Assembly (NCBI GenBank): GCA_937891465.1
Contig: CALAHF010000108.1
Span: forward strand, 1-49,462
Direction of reading: 5' to 3'
Source: an uncultured Verrucomicrobiales bacterium
GTDB lineage: Bacteria > Verrucomicrobiota > Verrucomicrobiia > Verrucomicrobiales > DEV007
Length of the DNA: 49,462 nt
Under the pieces are notes generated by a model. That model saw only the letters and a program-made list of their open reading frames with translations, did no database searches and was not told the DNA's origin. Each line of letters starts with the position of its first letter. Position 1 is the first letter of the stretch. A program made the translations under genes and the position numbers. Shown piece by piece: positions 38,816-46,117 of this stretch.

Positions 38816-39826
38816 TTATGGAAACCGTCGCCAAAATGTCTCGCCGCCAATCAATGACAGCAGACCAAAGAGAAAGGCCACAAATGCAGGCCAATAGAAC
38901 AGCTCGTCCGCGGTAACGGTCGTGCGGGTCTTTACCTCCGTTTTCTCCAACTTATCGATTTGGCTGAAAATGGTTTCTAATCCGCTGGTGTCTTGAGCCC
39001 GGAAATAATCGCCATCGGCAATCGAAGCAATCTGCTGCAGGGTTTCTTCGTCGAATTCCTGACGCAGCATCTGTGGGCCGCGCGGGGTTTGCACGGTGTA
39101 ATCACCATACGTTCCCACGGCGATGGTGTAGATTTTAATCCCGAGTGTTTTGGCGAGTTTGGCGGCTTCGATCGGTGAGAGCTTTCCTGAGTTGTTCACG
39201 CCATCAGTCAAAAGTACGACCACCTTGGATTTGGCAGGGCGCTTATCGAGTCGTTTTGCGGCAGCGGCGATAGCAGATCCGATGGCAGTCCCGTCTTCAA
39301 CCAAACCGATGCGAACACGGCCCAATCCATTGGGGCCTTCGAGCCAATCGTGAGAAACAGTGAGGGGACTTGCTAAATACGGTCGCCCTGCAAACGCAAG
39401 TAGGCCGATCCGATCTGATTTACGGCCGCGAATGAACTCGCGCGTTACTTTCTTCGCAGCCTGAAGCCGGTTTGCTTTTGCACCACCGATCTCAAAATCC
39501 TCGACCTGCATTGAGCGTGAAACATCGATGGCGAGAATCAGCTCGATTCCGCTTTCGGTCGTTTTAGTTTTTTTATCGACCCATTGCGGTCGCGTCAGTG
39601 CAAGAATTCCGAATCCAAGTGCCAGCATCATCAGCGCGATTCGAAAACCGCCTGCGCGGGAACGAGTCATCGGCCCGAGTCGGTTCAGAATATGCAGCGA
39701 CGAAAATACAACCGCGCCTTGTTGGCCTTTTTTGCCTTTTAAAACGAGCAACAGCGGAATCAGCCCAAGGAGCAGAAACGCCCACGGGTTGGCAAATACG
39801 AAACTGGTTTCGGCGAGAAGTGGCAT
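38816..39826 (-). CDS. BatA-like VWA membrane protein
   Basis: The 336-residue protein from MPLLAETSFVFANPWAFLLL (a longer start at 39853 is possible) opens with the BatA N-terminal domain, WAFLLLGLIPLLLVLKGKKG, and a second helix, IALMMLALGFGILALTRPQW. The VWA domain carries the complete MIDAS: ILAIDVSRSMQVEDF (DxSxS), EDGTAIGSAIA (Thr) and VVLLTDGVNNSG (Asp). A C-terminal membrane helix follows (WPAFVAFLFGLLSLIGG). It probably acts with the downstream VWA-TPR protein as a membrane complex. The MoxR and DUF58 genes usually found upstream are not here; a tubulin-associated TPR gene is instead. Confidence 0.93.
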   Translation of the reverse strand: MPLLAETSFVFANPWAFLLLGLIPLLLVLKGKKGQQGAVVFSSLHILNRLGPMTRSRAGGFRIALMMLALGFGILALTRPQWVDKKTKTTESGIELILAIDVSRSMQVEDFEIGGAKANRLQAAKKVTREFIRGRKSDRIGLLAFAGRPYLASPLTVSHDWLEGPNGLGRVRIGLVEDGTAIGSAIAAAAKRLDKRPAKSKVVVLLTDGVNNSGKLSPIEAAKLAKTLGIKIYTIAVGTYGDYTVQTPRGPQMLRQEFDEETLQQIASIADGDYFRAQDTSGLETIFSQIDKLEKTEVKTRTTVTADELFYWPAFVAFLFGLLSLIGGETFWRRFP

Positions 39827-39954
39827 AGGAGATTTCCGAAGTGGAATCTGCACGAAAACGGGCAGGGGTCACGCTTCTTTTTCGGGTCAAAATTGAATCT
39901 CAAAATCAAACGGACACAACTGTTCGCTCATCGCTTTCGCTGAGTCGAACAACC

Positions 39955-40755
39955 TCACTCAGTCACAACTTCACCCACGCCTGACTCAGGATCAATCCCG
40001 CTTTGCACGGTCGGATCGGCGATGTCACCAAGCTTTTCGACTTTGCTGAAATAATCAGCAGCCATTTCGTAGTTACCCATCGCTTTGTGGACGGCGGCTA
40101 GATTGTTGTAAGACTGACCAAGATCGTAATGATGACCATTCTCCCCAAAAAGCTTCTGACGAATCGTCAACGCTTCAGAATGAAACTCGCAGGCGCGATC
40201 AAAATCGTGCTTTGAATAATAGAGAACTCCCAAATTATTGTAGACGGAGGCAACACGAGCATCGTCTTTGTTATTCCTGTCGAGTCCCTTTTGAAATTTG
40301 TTTAGGGCGCTTAGATAACTTTTCTCCGCTGCTTCCGGACGGGATGTCCGTTTGTAAAGCATCGCCAAATTGTTGTGAACGACGGCCACCTGGATTGGTT
40401 CAAGGAGATTCGCTTCTTCAGCGAGTCGGAGAGATTCTTCGTAATGCTCGACAGCTTTCTCATTCCGCTCACTATTGTCGAAGTGACACGCCATGAGCGA
40501 ATGAATCCGGAAAAGCAGCTCTGGAGCTACTTCGATATCGGATTCTTTACAGTGGACCAGTGCCTCGCTGTAAAGACGCTCGGAACGACCCGGTTCTCCG
40601 ATTCTGGAACGGAATTTTGCGAGTTCGCATAACGCGTCCACCAAATCGGGAAGGAATCGGTGATCGCTGTATGATAGGCGCCGCAAACGGTCAACATCGC
40701 GAGATGCTCCTGTAATTTGCTTTTCTATCGGAAGGTCTGTTTCTGTATTTCTCAA
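39955..40755 (-). CDS. TPR protein of kinesin-light-chain type, partner of bacterial tubulins
   Basis: The 266-residue protein has no signal peptide. Residues ~70-240 carry KLC-style 42-residue repeats: AVEHYEESLRLAEEANLLEP, VVHNNLAMLYKRTSRPEAAE, VYNNLGVLYYSKHDFDRACE with FHSEALTIRQKLFGENGHHY, and SYNNLAAVHKAMGNYEMAAD. The YNNLA and LFGENHxxxxxSYNNLA pattern is that of kinesin light chains. In Prosthecobacter the btubA-btubB operon carries a third gene, bacterial kinesin light chain (BtubC), which binds the bacterial microtubule. Here it is likewise 3' of the BtubB-like gene, about 130 bases away, on the same strand. The frame is intact with no sign of decay. Confidence 0.85.
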   Translation of the reverse strand: MRNTETDLPIEKQITGASRDVDRLRRLSYSDHRFLPDLVDALCELAKFRSRIGEPGRSERLYSEALVHCKESDIEVAPELLFRIHSLMACHFDNSERNEKAVEHYEESLRLAEEANLLEPIQVAVVHNNLAMLYKRTSRPEAAEKSYLSALNKFQKGLDRNNKDDARVASVYNNLGVLYYSKHDFDRACEFHSEALTIRQKLFGENGHHYDLGQSYNNLAAVHKAMGNYEMAADYFSKVEKLGDIADPTVQSGIDPESGVGEVVTE

Positions 40756-40882
40756 AAAAACTCTTGGCTGGAATTTCCGGGTAATGAAGGTCCTTAATGC
40801 CTGAGTCTCACAATGCCTGGTTGAGAAAATATCGTTGAGATGGAGCCCGCCAAGTTGGGAACTGCAGGTGAGGGGCAGTCAC

Positions 40883-42124
40883 TTACGCAGCACCATCATC
40901 GTAAGATTTCGCCAAATCTGCAACCACATTCCGCGCTTCCTCAAGTCGTTCAAGGCTCACGCAGTTGTTCTGATACCAATGAGTGTAGGCTTCGTTTTCG
41001 AATATGATGTCGAACTGTTCGACACGACGTTTGAAAACCTGCGAAATTCCAGTGTGGTTCACCAAAGCCAAGCCGGTTGAGCCAAAGCCTTCCGGTGCGG
41101 TGTCGATAATACCAATCTTGATTCCCGTGGGAACGTAAGAAGCAAATTTGAGTGACTTCCGAATTTCGGACACCTTTTCATCAACAGATTTCGCACTGAT
41201 ATCTCCACGGAACAGCGCACAGGCTGAGAGAAAAACACCGGCATCAAAGTCGATTTCGGCAGAGAAGTTATTTCGCGAAAAGGTCTCGGCTGCCAAATCC
41301 GCAAATTCGGTCCGGACAATGCCGTCGGGTTTTGTCGGAGTCATCGGTGCAAAAGATGCCGTGAGGAAGTGGTCTCCGGTGAATGGAACAAGGTTCACAA
41401 GGCATTCGCCGAGGTCAGTGTTCAGTGTTCCATGAAAACGGAGTGAGCTGGTGACCGAGGACATGATCAATGATGTCATGTGATTCACATCCATGTAATT
41501 CGGCGAACGCTTCAGCTTTGACTGAGCAATACGGAAGAGCGCTTCGTTATCGAGAAGGATCGTTGCATCCGCATTTTCCTTCAGCTTCTGGAGTGAAAGA
41601 ATTGAGTTGTAGGCCTCAGTCGCAGAATCGGAAATCAAGGCAGATGGAGCCACTGAGAATGTGAAAACCTTCCTCTTCGGATACGCTTCGCGAAGTTTCT
41701 CAACGATAAGTGATCCGCAACCGCCACCGATACTGTGGGTGATGATGAATCCCTGGAGCGACTCAGTTTTGTCCACCGTTGCGTCGACGACGTTCATCAC
41801 CTGATCGATGATGCGCTCACCTTCAACGTGATAACCGCGCGCCCAGTTGTTTGCTGCGGCGGGTGGGGGTAGATAGACTGACGTTTCAGAAGGCGGCAGG
41901 ATTTTGACGTTTACGGAAGGCCATTGATCGACACTCTTCTTCGCAGTGTCCTGAATCTCTTCGCCTGTTTTTCCGGGAAGTTCGAACCAAACCTGGTGGA
42001 ATGAAAAGGCCTCGTTCTTTAAAGTGCCTCCGTTAATCTTGCCGGCGAGTCCGTTGAGGACCAGAATTGAATCGATCGATGAAGGGCGATGGTTTCGCAG
42101 AATGAGAAATTCCTGAAAGCTCAC
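40883..42124 (-). pseudogene. btubB: BtubB-like bacterial tubulin, chimeric and with a damaged nucleotide-binding signature
   Basis: The 413-codon frame starts at GTG 42124, but the same frame is open back to the TGA near 42242. Residues from about 91 on are unmistakably tubulin and closest in my memory to Prosthecobacter BtubB: NNWARGYHVEGERIIDQVMN, LQGFIITHSIGGG, FTFSVAPSALISDSATEAYN, LLDNEALFRIA, SLRFHGTLNTDLGECLVNLV, HFLTASFAPM and AYTHWYQNN. The first ~90 residues are not tubulin; the segment with the GQCGNQ loop, which opens the GTP site, is gone and replaced by sequence in frame with the upstream kinase remnant. The signature GGGTGSG is reduced to HSIGGGCGSLI, a four-residue deletion. 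It may be a dying gene, or encode a subunit that no longer binds GTP; the remaining ~320 codons are undamaged. Confidence 0.85.
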
Positions 42125-42241
42125 GCCCGTCGTTGTTGTCAGAAAGCGATAGTAAGATCCGTTGAGAAGAATCAGCCCTTCTTCCTGAGGTGGGCTCGGA
42201 ATAATGCCACGAGGTGGAATCCATGGAAGCCGACCCCGTTC

Positions 42242-43169
42242 TCAATTTCCCTTACGAACTGCATTCAATGCGTAGGGACATTCAAAAACGCCAACACTGG
42301 GTTCGAGATCAAACGAGGCCGAGTTGAGTTGATCGTTCGCGCCCACTCGATCGAACACTTCGCGTTGCATCGTTAACCGAGGTCGCGTTTTTGGAGTTGC
42401 GGCGATTGCTGAACGTCGCGGAAGATCTTTTGTCCCTTTATTGTATGCAGACTCTAATAATTCCTGATAACGCTCAAAAGTGTCCACGGAGCCCGTTTCA
42501 GGTTCAATGGTGTCAGAGAGCAGTTTAATCACAGCAGGATCCACGTTCTTAAGAGCTTCCACTTTGGCCTTGCTGCCCAACCGCGTAAGGCCGACCCGCC
42601 AACAAATAATAAAGCTGACGGGAAACATCAGCCAAAAGGTCGATAGTTTCAAAATCGTTCATCCCGCGAGGCTCCGGACGACCCAATCCTAGATCGATAA
42701 TTCGAAGAGTCAGATAAGCTGATTTTTCCAAAACAACCATGAGATTCTCCAACTGCAATCCAAGCAATAAGCGATAGTGAGGCTCGACCTCAACTAAACT
42801 GTCTATAAGATCTAGAGACAAGGCCAGGGCAGTGTGCGGTTCCACCGGGTCGTTCCTTACAATGTAGTCCGTCAGAAACTCGCCTTCGTTGATGTCGGTT
42901 GCGTAAAAGAAAATCCCGTCGTCGTCCGCTGTCGCCAGGATTTTCTGAAAACAATGGTTATGGATCGTTCCTGCATTCCAGGCACGTTCCAAAAATGACA
43001 ATTTGCCATTTCCCTCCATCTGCTAATAACGTGCAGTTCGACAAAGCGATTGGTTTTAAGGGTCAAATCCAAGGCACACGACTTCTTCAGACACTCTGCG
43101 GAGCGAAATCGGGTTCCGGTCCTTGTTTTGGCAAACAAGGAAATCGCCAAAGGGCTCGAGATTAGGCAT
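42242..43169 (-). pseudogene. Decayed Ser/Thr-kinase-like gene inside the tubulin locus
   Basis: From ATG 43169 the frame reads MPNLEPFGDFLVCQNKDRNP, ISLRRVSEEVVCLGFDP, then TAA (43056-43058) and TAG (43023-43025), and resumes in the same frame: LSFLERAWNAGTIHNHCFQK, ILATADDDGIFFYATDINEG, LLLGLQLENLMVV, LRIIDLGLGRPE, FETIDLLADVSRQLYYLLAG. This is the order of a protein kinase C-lobe, with the HRDLKPEN loop replaced by GLQLENL and DFG by DLG, so even the ancestral domain was probably a pseudokinase. A frameshift near 42575-42592 leads into KVEALKNVDPAVIKLLSDTI and ERYQELLESAYNKG. The frame ends at TGA (42242-42244) but stays open beyond it into the replaced N-terminus of the BtubB-like gene. 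Confidence 0.7.
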
Positions 43170-43239
43170 ATGCGGACTTAGAAAGAGTAGAATAGACAGG
43201 ATATTACGAGGCTTTCTATAAACTCCGTGATTATTTTAA

Positions 43240-43512
43240 TTAATGAGAGTCAAAATTGAACGGATGCGAAATGTCATCACGCCTTGGTTTCAACTGTGTT
43301 CCGATCGGATTGAGGATGTTCACCGAACCACCCCTGTTCGATCGTCGCGTTGATTCGATTGAACCCTGTTTGATTGTGACAAGGACTGAAGGCAGCGAAC
43401 CGGGAACATGGTGCGGATTCAATTTTTCAGGATCTCCCAACAATCTAAGCTCAGCGTCGGGGCTCCAACTATCAAGCGTTTCAGTGTTTTCCAAGTTAAT
43501 ATTCATGCTCAC
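43240..43512 (-). CDS. Small hypothetical ORF containing a dispersed-repeat insertion
   Basis: The 90-codon frame starts MSMNINLENTETLDSWSPDA and continues ELRLLGDPEKLNPHHVPGSL; then VTIKQGSIESTRRSNRGGSV is the translation of repeat copy 9, and NILNPIGTQLKPRRDDISHP closes it. The repeat keeps the frame open. The N-terminal half could be the start of a real small protein in the tubulin operon (21 bases after the BtubA-like gene) or the former N-terminus of another gene. It is not recognised and may not be functional. Confidence 0.4.
   Translation of the reverse strand: MSMNINLENTETLDSWSPDAELRLLGDPEKLNPHHVPGSLPSVLVTIKQGSIESTRRSNRGGSVNILNPIGTQLKPRRDDISHPFNFDSH
43315..43380. repeat. Dispersed repeat, copy 9, inside an open frame
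   Basis: gttcaccgaaccacccctgt, tcgatcgtcgcgttgattcg, attgaaccctgtttgattgt: two units in tandem of the family otherwise found between genes. It lies within the small ORF between the BtubA-like gene and the kinase remnant. Confidence 0.65.
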
Positions 43513-43533
43513 TAATTTTCAGGTTCTTAATAC

Positions 43534-44805
43534 TCAAATATCTTGATAGCGCTCGGCACGGAATCCAACTTCGCGGCGGCGTGTTTCGATGTCGTATTCA
43601 GTCATTTCAGCCTCCAAATACCAATTGGCGAAGGCGCGACGGCTCCAAAGTTGATCGAATCGTTCGCACAATTCCTGCAGCCAACTTCCTATCGATGAAC
43701 TGTTTACCAGAACGCAAATTGCTGAATGCGGTGACGGTTCGGTGCTCAAATGCACGCGGGCGAAGTGGGGAATCGCAGTTTCATTATCCTTTTCGTTTTT
43801 CCGAAGTACTTGCAAGCCCGCCCGATTTTTTCCGTAAATGCCGAGGCTGAGGATTTTTCCATCGGCACACGGACAGAGATCGAGGTTTTTCTCGAGGACT
43901 TGATTCAAAATCTGCCCTGAAGTTCTGACCGACGCGTTTTTTCGCAAAATCGACTGAAGTGGGAAAATCGCTCCGGTTGCCAGCGGGAAATCAGGGTGAG
44001 GGGCCAAATCGTGGATAACATCGGCCAGCGAGTTCGCCGGATTTTCATCGCCACTGAATCGAATTGAGCCGGTCATAGCCAGCACAATATCTGCAATCAA
44101 TTTGTTGATGTGCGGAATGCTGGGATGTTCGATTTCCCAGTGAGAGGCCGCTAATTGCAGCAGAATATCGTTGTGGAAAACAAGTCCGAGAGAAATATGT
44201 TTTAGAGCCGCCTCGATGCCGAATACGGCGTTGTAAGGTTCCGTTACCGGCGAAGAGACAGAAGTGGACGGAAGGACGCCTACGGTCATTATCGGGGCTG
44301 CCGGGGCATAGTCCTTCAAAATCTCGAAGAGCCCAGCGGCAAGCCCGGAGCCGGATCCACCGCCGTATCCTTGAAATACAATAAATGCCGTAGGTGCGGG
44401 AGTTTTCTGGAACTCGCGGTCCAAAACAGCACGGATATCGGAATTCAAGCGATCGCCCACTTCTCGAACGGCCACAGCGAAATTGTTTCCGCTCGATTCA
44501 ACGCCGGTTACGAAATTTGCCGGATTGAACAGCTCGCTCCAAGTTCGCTTCAAGTCATCTGCCGCCCGGGGATCGGAATCCAGGAATAGGCAACGAGGCA
44601 CGTAGTGCGTTTCTGAGCCCGTTCCAACCGCGGTGAAGAGTTTCTGCCAGTGACCGGTCGGTTCAGCGTCTGAACGACCGGTTTCGGGAATGATTTGATG
44701 ATCGCGGCATAACTGTGCCCAAAACGCGGCGGCCATTTGACTGCCCGCTTGTCCAACACCGGTGACGAGAATACTGCCTTCGTCCATTGTAAATTTGGTA
44801 TTCAC
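43534..44805 (-). CDS. btubA: Divergent BtubA-like bacterial tubulin
   Basis: The 423-residue protein (an alternative start is MDEGSILV, six codons in) has tubulin/FtsZ GTPase features throughout: VTGVGQAGSQMAAAFWAQLC (loop T1, 14-33), HYVPRCLFLDSDPRAADDLK (T2), ELFNPANFVTGVESSGNNFA (T3), FQGYGGGSGSGLAAGLFEIL with signature GGGSGSG (148-154, T4), GVLPSTSVSSPVTEPYNAVF (T5) and a C-terminal LWSRRAFANWYLEAEMTE. LFNPAN and RRAFANWYL are close to Prosthecobacter BtubA. The middle/C-terminal part (about 255-380) is shorter and much more divergent than known BtubA (473 residues from memory). It should bind GTP and form filaments, but its partner subunit here is damaged. It begins 5 bases after the regulator's stop, so translation is probably coupled. 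Confidence 0.88.
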   Translation of the reverse strand: MNTKFTMDEGSILVTGVGQAGSQMAAAFWAQLCRDHQIIPETGRSDAEPTGHWQKLFTAVGTGSETHYVPRCLFLDSDPRAADDLKRTWSELFNPANFVTGVESSGNNFAVAVREVGDRLNSDIRAVLDREFQKTPAPTAFIVFQGYGGGSGSGLAAGLFEILKDYAPAAPIMTVGVLPSTSVSSPVTEPYNAVFGIEAALKHISLGLVFHNDILLQLAASHWEIEHPSIPHINKLIADIVLAMTGSIRFSGDENPANSLADVIHDLAPHPDFPLATGAIFPLQSILRKNASVRTSGQILNQVLEKNLDLCPCADGKILSLGIYGKNRAGLQVLRKNEKDNETAIPHFARVHLSTEPSPHSAICVLVNSSSIGSWLQELCERFDQLWSRRAFANWYLEAEMTEYDIETRRREVGFRAERYQDI

Positions 44806-44810
44806 TAAAG

Positions 44811-45500
44811 TTATGAAGTGGTGGAAGTTTTATCTGAATTTTCGAGTAAATTTCCCGGAACGGGATGACCCGGTGCCCAGCGGGGGATTCTCTCCATCGC
44901 GATCACTACGCGTGCGCTGGGATGAAATCGTGGTGCGATCGTGTCGAGACTCTTGCCTAATTCGGTTGATCCTTCGATCCACCGCTTCGGAGTTGATGCA
45001 TGGTATTCGACCTTTTTCATGGGGGTCAAAAGGTGCTCTACGGCTTGTTCTAAATCACAATCCTGGCACACGGAATCGAGGGCTTCCGTGAGCAGGTGAA
45101 CAACCGACGCGCGTTGCCGATTTTTTGATGATTCGTTACCCGCCGCGCGAATCAAAAGTCGAGTCCAAAACCCGAGTTGCTGCATGCTGCCTGAAAGTGA
45201 ATTTTCAGGGGCTGAATTGAGCTGCTCGATCCAGCATTCGTAGAAGTCTCTAGAATACTTTTTTCCGTCAACCGCAAGCGGTTTCCCAGAAGACCCTTTA
45301 AGAAGTTCCCGATGGTCGACTCCGGTCGTGCGCTCGATCCGCAACGCGAGCTTTCGACTGATCTCGAATTTTCCGTTTTCGATCGCCTGGATCGTGGGTG
45401 CCGCAACTCCTACCAACTCGGCAAAATCTGCCTGAGTTTTTGTGTCCGTCAATTTTCGGATATCACGCAAAGGATGATAGAAGGAGGGAGGTCTCGGCAT
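44811..45500 (-). CDS. XRE-type helix-turn-helix regulator heading the tubulin operon
   Basis: The 229-residue protein from MPRPPSFYHPLRDIRKLTDT (a longer start at 45545 crosses a palindrome and is less likely) has an N-terminal HTH of the Cro/C1 type: KTQADFAELVGVAAPTIQAI, ENGKFEISRKLALRIERTTG (about 19-60). The C-terminal ~150 residues are not recognised; they carry SVVHLLTEALDSVCQDCDLE. The HTH is followed by a spaced sensor-like part rather than by a phage repressor peptidase. Its stop codon is 5 bases from the BtubA-like start, so it is in the same transcript and may regulate it. Regulators are not part of the known btub operons. Confidence 0.85.
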   Translation of the reverse strand: MPRPPSFYHPLRDIRKLTDTKTQADFAELVGVAAPTIQAIENGKFEISRKLALRIERTTGVDHRELLKGSSGKPLAVDGKKYSRDFYECWIEQLNSAPENSLSGSMQQLGFWTRLLIRAAGNESSKNRQRASVVHLLTEALDSVCQDCDLEQAVEHLLTPMKKVEYHASTPKRWIEGSTELGKSLDTIAPRFHPSARVVIAMERIPRWAPGHPVPGNLLENSDKTSTTS

Positions 45501-45811
45501 GATTTTTCTGCCAGAGGTGTAGCATAGCCGTATGCAAGAGTGCAACTTATTCTTTTATGTTTTTCGCGTGTTTGAATTTTTTATGAAAATTGGAAGTGCG
45601 CTACGATTAAGTAGGCACAACGTAACTGGATCCAAATTGATTTTAAAAAGCGCGTAGCATACAAATAAGTTAAAAATGAAGAATTCAAAATTTAGTTAAG
45701 ACATCTAAATAATAAACGAAATTAAGAGAAAATGACGAAAAATTGCCAATTTTTTCCCAAATTTGAACGGGTATCAGTTGCTTTTGTTGTGGGTTAGACT
45801 ATCGAAATGGA
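45501..45811. promoter_or_regulatory. AT-rich divergent intergenic region with a palindrome upstream of the regulator
   Basis: This 311-base region separates the regulator (minus) from the His-rich lipoprotein (plus). GCATA-gccg-TATGC (45522-45535) is a perfect 5-bp-arm palindrome 22-35 bases before the regulator's ATG, and the half GTAGCATA recurs at about 45652-45659. It is a candidate autoregulatory operator; the inference rests only on position and symmetry. The rest is strongly AT-rich and no gene is seen. Confidence 0.35.
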
Positions 45812-46117
45812 ATGAAATTCTCTCGATTGTTGTTGATTGCTCCGGCTCTAACTGGATTCGGAATCGTAGGTTGTGAGCGGCATAGTTTTGAAGAAACCAG
45901 CCAGCTATTTAAGCCACATGGCGGTGATCACGGAGATGGGCACGGCGATCATTCCGACCCACATGCGGGAGATCATGCTGCCGAAAAAGGACACGATGAT
46001 CACGGCAAAAAGGATGGCCATGAAGGGGATGCAAAGCGCGATGATCACACCGACAAACCAGCCAAAAAAGAGGCTCCTAAAAAGGCGAAAGGCGAAGCAA
46101 AAGATGTTGGGATTTGA
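45812..46117 (+). CDS. His/Asp-rich small lipoprotein
   Basis: The 101-residue protein starts MKFSRLLLIAPALTGFGIVGC with lipobox GIVGC, so the mature protein would be lipid-anchored at Cys21. The mature part is built of H, D, G and K: HGGDHGDGHGDHSDPHAGDH and HDDHGKKDGHEGDAKRDDHT, then an alanine/lysine tail. Such composition binds divalent metals (Zn, Ni, Co or Cu) in known His-rich proteins, so metal storage or delivery at the envelope is likely by composition alone. A strong terminator follows 46 bases after the stop. Confidence 0.75.
   Translation: MKFSRLLLIAPALTGFGIVGCERHSFEETSQLFKPHGGDHGDGHGDHSDPHAGDHAAEKGHDDHGKKDGHEGDAKRDDHTDKPAKKEAPKKAKGEAKDVGI

Follow-up and report, generated by a model that had tools for sequence, protein, structure and literature searches.

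BtubA and BtubB of Prosthecobacter are bacterial tubulins. The part of PMC5372463 available to us describes their operon as btubA-btubB-bklc only and reports that Bklc binds Btub filaments and lipid in Prosthecobacter vanneervenii. PMC13394414 adds BtubA/BtubB sequences from further verrucomicrobial bacteria and reports an origin in Asgard archaea. The TubZ-TubR-tubC system of type III plasmid partition (on which see PMC7762940) couples a protein of the tubulin family to one that binds DNA, and includes a DNA site. In this report, we describe a tubulin locus within a stretch of 49,462 nucleotides (the window; contig CALAHF010000108.1, assembly GCA_937891465.1) from an uncultured Verrucomicrobiales bacterium, genome G000. 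A BtubB remnant is followed by a Bklc-like gene, in the order known from Prosthecobacter, and the tubulins belong to the same group. The window differs in that btubA is absent, btubB is broken, a kinase-like gene is decayed, and two genes are extra, those for an XRE-type helix-turn-helix (HTH) regulator and for a third tubulin, here called TubX. On balance, we favor the reading of a decayed six-gene tubulin operon, in which XRE and TubX would form one autoregulatory DNA-binding unit with a tubulin effector part. A third tubulin coupled or fused to an HTH regulator beside a palindrome constitutes a testable regulatory circuit, and the genes of a bacterial microtubule are seen decaying inside one genus.

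TubX matches the Pfam family Tubulin (PF00091, E 1.6e-40) and no NCBIfam model. The top solved structure is BtubA (2bto, E 1.6e-69), and the best solved relatives are BtubA plus Asgard and eukaryotic tubulins; by these matches, TubX is not a tubulin-family GTPase of the TubZ kind. The original prediction had assigned both tubulins of the window to the BtubA/BtubB group and not to FtsZ or TubZ, and the Pfam searches, the solved-structure searches, and the tree agree with it. It had also called the first tubulin BtubA-like, and an assignment to BtubA has to be given up. G057, a genome of the same genus (contigs named Verrucomicrobiales bacterium SS_bin_30), carries both TubX and a true BtubA on one contig. 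Because it is present there beside the true BtubA, TubX is best regarded as a divergent third tubulin whose lineage separated beside that of BtubA. The name BtubC was dropped for it since PMC9871819 uses btubC for bklc.

A tree was calculated from 44 tubulins. The BtubA side was represented by 11 of the 37 distinct loci plus G057 and G017 (a genome of another genus in the same family); the other entries were three loci from Myxococcota, one from Heimdall, two eukaryotic references, and every TubX-type protein apart from an incomplete one of G109, and TubZ was left out. The two TubX proteins and five fused-type tubulins (described below) were found to form one clade (support 100/98). This clade joins BtubA at 100/98, and the split containing BtubA only has a support of just 71/63. 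TubX thus stands in its own clade beside BtubA, from which it also differs by a changed T7 loop and an identity of only 31–33% to BtubA of G057 and G017. The grouping of TubX with the fused tubulins is supported independently by the fusion and the shared XRE.

The GTP-site motifs T1, T3, T4, and T5 are kept in TubX of the window and of G057. The T7 acid position, which we take to be that of alpha-tubulin E254, is occupied by D in the window and by A in G057. The fused forms have lost residues of T1 and T4 besides the change in T7. For TubX, pN was 0.19 vs a pS of 0.81, and relative-rate tests of the window protein against that of G057 gave 21:19 and 12:14 unique changes.

The XRE regulator of the window is 66% identical to that of G057 and 35% identical to the N-terminal parts of two fusion proteins from G097 and G091. 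As originally predicted, it abuts the first tubulin: the XRE stop codon precedes the TubX start by 5 nt in the window and, from the open reading frame (ORF) coordinates, by 4 nt in G057. This spacing suggests that the synthesis of XRE and TubX is coupled. In a second family of the order (f3), a TubX-type protein was found in 6 of 13 genomes, with one match each, and the same model search detected neither BtubA nor BtubB in any of these six. G097 and G091 encode a protein of 644 residues with the XRE domain at the N-terminus and the tubulin at the C-terminus, and these fusions share the opening MPxPPxxxHPLRxIR with the XRE of the window. The same layout occurs in G082, which brings the visibly fused f3 genomes to three. 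In the proteins from G088 and G106, the match to the XRE part is no more than weak (E 2e-6 and 6e-6), and the G109 protein runs off the end of its contig. For the G097 fusion, AlphaFold predicts (pLDDT 79.5, pTM 0.73) an N-terminal part that is helical and HTH-like, a central helical region, and a tubulin fold, with BtubA structures among its best matches; the fold was tested on this fused relative only.

An XRE model matched 22 of 386 genomes of the order. The match was full length (E < 1e-100) only in G000, G057, G091, and G097, and in G082 it came in two pieces (best E 1.9e-23). The 17 other genomes gave E values of 2e-17 or weaker, extending at most to position 176 of 217. Antitoxin-type HTH matches to XRE in NCBIfam were weak and below the cut-offs. 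Samples of the class (335 genomes) and of the phylum (387 genomes) yielded TubX in the window genome alone; these samples are partial, the f3 genomes are not reported in them, and the other hits were genomes of family f4 with BtubA/B. The literature searched, which was covered in part, describes neither the fusion or pairing of an XRE regulator with a tubulin nor the regulation of bacterial tubulin genes.

TubX could instead be a cytoskeletal subunit, either capping or nucleating BtubA/B or forming a filament of its own, with XRE merely a neighboring operon regulator. The separate XRE and TubX genes of the window and G057, the intact GTP pocket motifs of TubX, and the joint presence of TubX and BtubA in G057 would fit such a role. 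However, XRE and TubX are fused in the three f3 genomes G091, G097, and G082, where no BtubA/B was found, the fused forms have lost pocket motifs, and TubX is retained in the window although BtubA is gone. We therefore consider a structural role for TubX unlikely.

The palindrome GCATA-N4-TATGC lies upstream of XRE. It is the sole match in the window, where 0.02 are expected, and in the 5.97-Mb genome, and G057 and G097 have one match each. The 5' end of the palindrome is located at –35 in the window, –35 in G057, and –117 in G097 relative to the start of XRE or XRE-TubX, and a further 9/10 copy is found at –29 in G097. Among the weaker sites, the window has one at –170 and G057 one at –165 (8/10 each), and G097 has 9/10 and 7/10 ones. 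Ten of 120 loci contained the palindrome, all of them from the places in the window, G057, and G097 and none a Verrucomicrobiaceae btub locus. The palindromes of the window and G057 come from close relatives and are not independent; that of G097 comes from another family. By our own arithmetic, the chance that the palindrome would land in the 300 bp preceding a given named gene is ~5e-5 per genome. A sigma-70 promoter scan returned 2 sites vs 1.0 expected.

The pairing of a tubulin-family protein with one that binds DNA, next to a candidate site, could also reflect a DNA-segregation system like TubZ-TubR, with the palindrome as centromere and TubX as motor. In partition by TubZ-TubR, the HTH protein binds centromere repeats arranged as an array, and a cytomotive filament requires the GTP motifs. 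However, besides the weaker sites given above, only one exact copy of the palindrome exists per genome in G000, G057, and G097, and the fused forms have lost GTP motifs. XRE-TubX further differs from TubZ-TubR-tubC in its XRE-type HTH, in a tubulin related to BtubA, and in the fusion. A segregation function is accordingly improbable.

For the autoregulatory unit that we favor, the following scheme is proposed. XRE would bind the candidate palindrome in its own promoter and control the operon, and TubX would act as the effector part of XRE. With the nucleotide pocket kept and the T7 catalytic loop degenerate, TubX may dock on tubulin subunits, or on itself, without the behavior of a normal polymer subunit or normal polymer turnover, and this contact would alter the DNA binding of XRE. 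Where BtubA/B are present, XRE-TubX would read the tubulin pool, TubX being the putative sensor and tubulin subunits the putative signal; where they are absent, the unit would persist with another input. The f3 fusions would hold both functions in one chain. The ligand and the sign of the regulation are conjectural. That TubX stays intact, paired with a DNA-binding regulator and next to a matching DNA site, suggests that a tubulin has become a component of a gene switch. More tentatively, and with somewhat less than even confidence, we propose that a tubulin of the microtubule-forming branch became the effector domain of a transcription factor, senses the tubulin pool or another ligand, switches its own operon by way of the palindrome, and outlives the cytoskeleton that it formerly served. 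If true, this would be a tubulin domain used for gene control.

Several observations weigh against this proposal. The exact placement of TubX is unsure, since its branches are long and the tree program warns about them. The fused tubulins may serve another role, their GTP motifs being partly lost. The G088 protein is without a Pfam HTH match, and no adjacent tubulin was found for 6 of the 17 weaker XRE matches, which were inspected with ~1.5 kb on each side; because similar HTH proteins occur without a neighboring tubulin, the XRE HTH family is wider than the tubulin pairing. The palindrome is found in the promoter of the unit itself in G000, G057, and G097, and is absent there in G091, G082, and G088. 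The single match in G091 lies elsewhere, near genes without an evident link, and its own promoter has a 7/10 site at –27; a whole-genome scan found no match in G082 or G088. With the control pattern, which was the reverse of the palindrome pattern, 1 match was obtained in the window genome, 2 in G057, and 3 in G097, and 0–3 per genome overall, so that the position of the palindrome, and not its count, is telling. Finally, the six-gene order is taken from G057, a metagenome assembly in which the end of a contig separates BtubA from BtubB.

Tubulins of the BtubA/B group were found in 3 of 74 genomes of the family, namely, the window genome, G057, and G017. In G057, the genes for XRE, TubX, an intact kinase-like protein of 507 residues, and BtubA are consecutive at one contig end, and those for BtubB and Bklc are at the end of another contig. 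From these two rows, the ancestral order was probably XRE-TubX-kinase-like-btubA-btubB-bklc, with the join of btubA to btubB inferred across the contig break. The synteny that the original prediction had asked for in relatives is therefore found within the genus, but it is split over two contigs. The predicted order btubA-btubB-bklc holds in the window for the Bklc-like TPR gene after BtubB and fails for BtubA, which is lost, and for BtubB, which is broken. The TPR protein directly follows btubB and is homologous to the Bklc-like genes of other loci; such a gene after BtubB is also present in G057 and, wherever the contig is long enough, in the btub loci of Verrucomicrobiaceae. In G017, BtubA is followed by a gap of 100 N and then by BtubB and Bklc, and the 15 kb upstream contain no kinase-like gene. 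A single frame of 912 residues in G017 was considered as a BtubA-BtubB single-chain fusion and rejected; it is not evidence of fusion because the 100-N scaffold gap lies inside it. In the tree, BtubB groups with one Heimdall tubulin (100/99), and the other Heimdall tubulin is not inside BtubA.

Relative to G057, the window appears to have lost the end of the kinase-like gene, the whole of BtubA, and ~90 residues of BtubB, together at least some 2 kb. The original prediction of a kinase remnant is borne out, in that it is a decayed copy of the 507-residue G057 protein (tblastn E 6e-99): residues 1–206 are matched with two stops and, after a frame change, residues 220–433 with one stop. The second kinase-like frame continues straight into BtubB, in an open frame spanning 40883–42241. 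The ORF at 40883–42124, predicted to be BtubB-like, is consequently a chimera. Its upstream part is kinase-like, and only from ~41863 does it match BtubB (2btq_B, E 3e-140), beginning at about residue 88 of that protein; this portion also matches Pfam Tubulin and Tubulin_C. The BtubB remnant lacks ~90 N-terminal tubulin residues, and its GTP loop T4 is cut from GGGSGSGVGS to GGGCGS by a four-residue deletion, which leaves no complete GTPase domain.

In the tree, the BtubB remnant is the sister of G057 BtubB (100/99) within the BtubB clade (100/100), and its end branch is 0.118 vs 0.014 for G057 BtubB. The ratio dN/dS of nonsynonymous to synonymous substitution rates was dropped, as synonymous sites were saturated in all pairs except BtubB, and the relative-rate test was used for this reason. 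The unique changes in BtubB of the window vs G057 were determined to be 20 vs 2 with outgroup L050 (p 1e-4), and 19:3, 19:4, and 15:6 with three further outgroups (last p 0.0495). For Bklc, the corresponding values were 12:5, 12:5, and 9:7 (p 0.09, 0.09, and 0.62). The lopsided rate of BtubB against the even rate of TubX indicates that BtubB is decaying and that TubX is held like its sister. BtubA was not found in the 95.6%-complete assembly, where PF00091 matches only TubX, the BtubB remnant, and a protein on another contig that is taken to be FtsZ. The window locus thus reads as a decayed operon in which XRE, TubX, and Bklc are intact.

These results bear on two further explanations. In the first, which is that of the original prediction, a working BtubA/BtubB pair has gained two genes. 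The best solved matches, TubX to BtubA and the second tubulin to BtubB, speak for it. However, G057 encodes its true BtubA separately from TubX, and the BtubB of the window is without its N-terminus and part of T4 and is accelerated in rate, so that TubX has no intact BtubB as a partner; this explanation is hardly tenable. In the second, errors of assembly or binning have produced the deletion and the chimera, and the full operon is present in the organism. The assembly is in 229 contigs, and the junction is known from the contig alone. The lesions, however, are independent of one another (the stops and the shift of frame that disrupt the kinase-like gene, the separate four-residue deletion in T4, and an excess of changes scattered across BtubB), the neighboring ORFs are intact, and BtubA was not found elsewhere in the assembly. 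Such an artifact is very improbable, and we retain the decayed operon.

The kinase-like gene had been regarded as new to the locus. Instead, 23 of the 37 distinct BtubA loci have it ahead of btubA and in the same orientation (for example, L047:3537-5768). No match was obtained over at least 3 kb upstream in 9 of the 37, and too little DNA was available in 5, 2 of which gave a partial match. The protein has 584–870 residues in these other loci. By eye, the longer forms apparently combine a pair of kinase-like domains with a proline-rich tail and what is likely a membrane helix, and NCBIfam kinase models touch both kinase-like regions in L072. That locus (labeled Prosthecobacter debontii) matches Pkinase with an E value of 7.7e-11, and L047 and L049 fall below the cut-off; the Verrucomicrobiaceae homologues match Pkinase only in part. 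The G057 protein resembles PknB-type bacterial Ser/Thr kinases in the fold of its model, which is of low confidence (pLDDT 69, pTM 0.56), as L072 does in its Pkinase match. It differs from them in having no Pfam kinase match and in catalytic motifs that, by eye, are poorly kept, and for these reasons it is likely a pseudokinase. Foldseek matches of the model to MARK kinases are at the level of the fold only, and a link to microtubules was not read from them. The word "kinase" is absent from the main text of PMC3232192 and PMC13394414 in the portions covered. The kinase-like gene appears to be an old neighbor of the btub locus and is a candidate partner of the bacterial microtubule.

The features of the locus are collected in Table 1. 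All five items of the original prediction lie on one strand, roughly where they had been placed; the five-gene locus is thus partly confirmed, with real genes and a changed reading.

Table 1. Features of the tubulin locus in the window
Feature	Positions	Strand	Basis or remark
XRE-type HTH regulator, 229 aa	44811..45500	-	HTH_3 E 1.9e-9; conserved start ATG 45500
TubX, third divergent tubulin	43534..44805	-	PF00091 E 1.6e-40; best solved match BtubA 2bto
Kinase-like gene, decayed 5' part (G057 residues 1-206)	42564..43169	-	tblastn, two internal stops
Kinase-like gene, decayed 3' part (G057 residues 220-433)	41882..42520	-	tblastn, one stop
BtubB remnant	40883..41863	-	phmmer to 2btq_B
Bklc-like TPR protein, 266 aa	39955..40755	-	TPR_12 E 1.5e-23
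Palindrome GCATA-N4-TATGC, candidate operator	45522..45535	.	5' end (coding strand) 35 nt before XRE start codon

Between TubX and the kinase-like remnant, an ORF of 90 residues without a Pfam match is found at 43240–43512; the corresponding gap in G057 is only ~130 bp. Genes with VWA domains had been predicted on both flanks and are present on one (38816–39853 was tested with Pfam), and on the other flank lie a gene of the GtrA family and a small gene that is lipoprotein-like. The latter, at 45812–46117, is His/Asp-rich and divergent from XRE, and a similar gene occupies the same place in G057 (L010:3704-3943).

Other contigs with tubulins were also encountered. One genome of family f4 (G083:C9) has two separate BtubA/BtubB pairs. 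The tubulins of G349 (L094 and L095), a metagenome-assembled genome labeled Verrucomicrobiaceae, were rejected as bacterial and left out of the tree; their visible N-terminus is like that of algal alpha-tubulin, and they were judged by eye to be contamination. Three metagenome contigs of Myxococcota/Polyangia (L086:5962-8810, L087:5968-8618, and L084:2418-5074) each carry two adjacent eukaryote-like tubulins that are not BtubA/B. The first tubulin of L086 is nearest to eukaryotic beta-tubulin (E 1.7e-139) and the second to alpha-tubulin (E 1.3e-84), and in the tree the Myxococcota sets join their eukaryotic counterparts with supports of 100/99 and 100/98.

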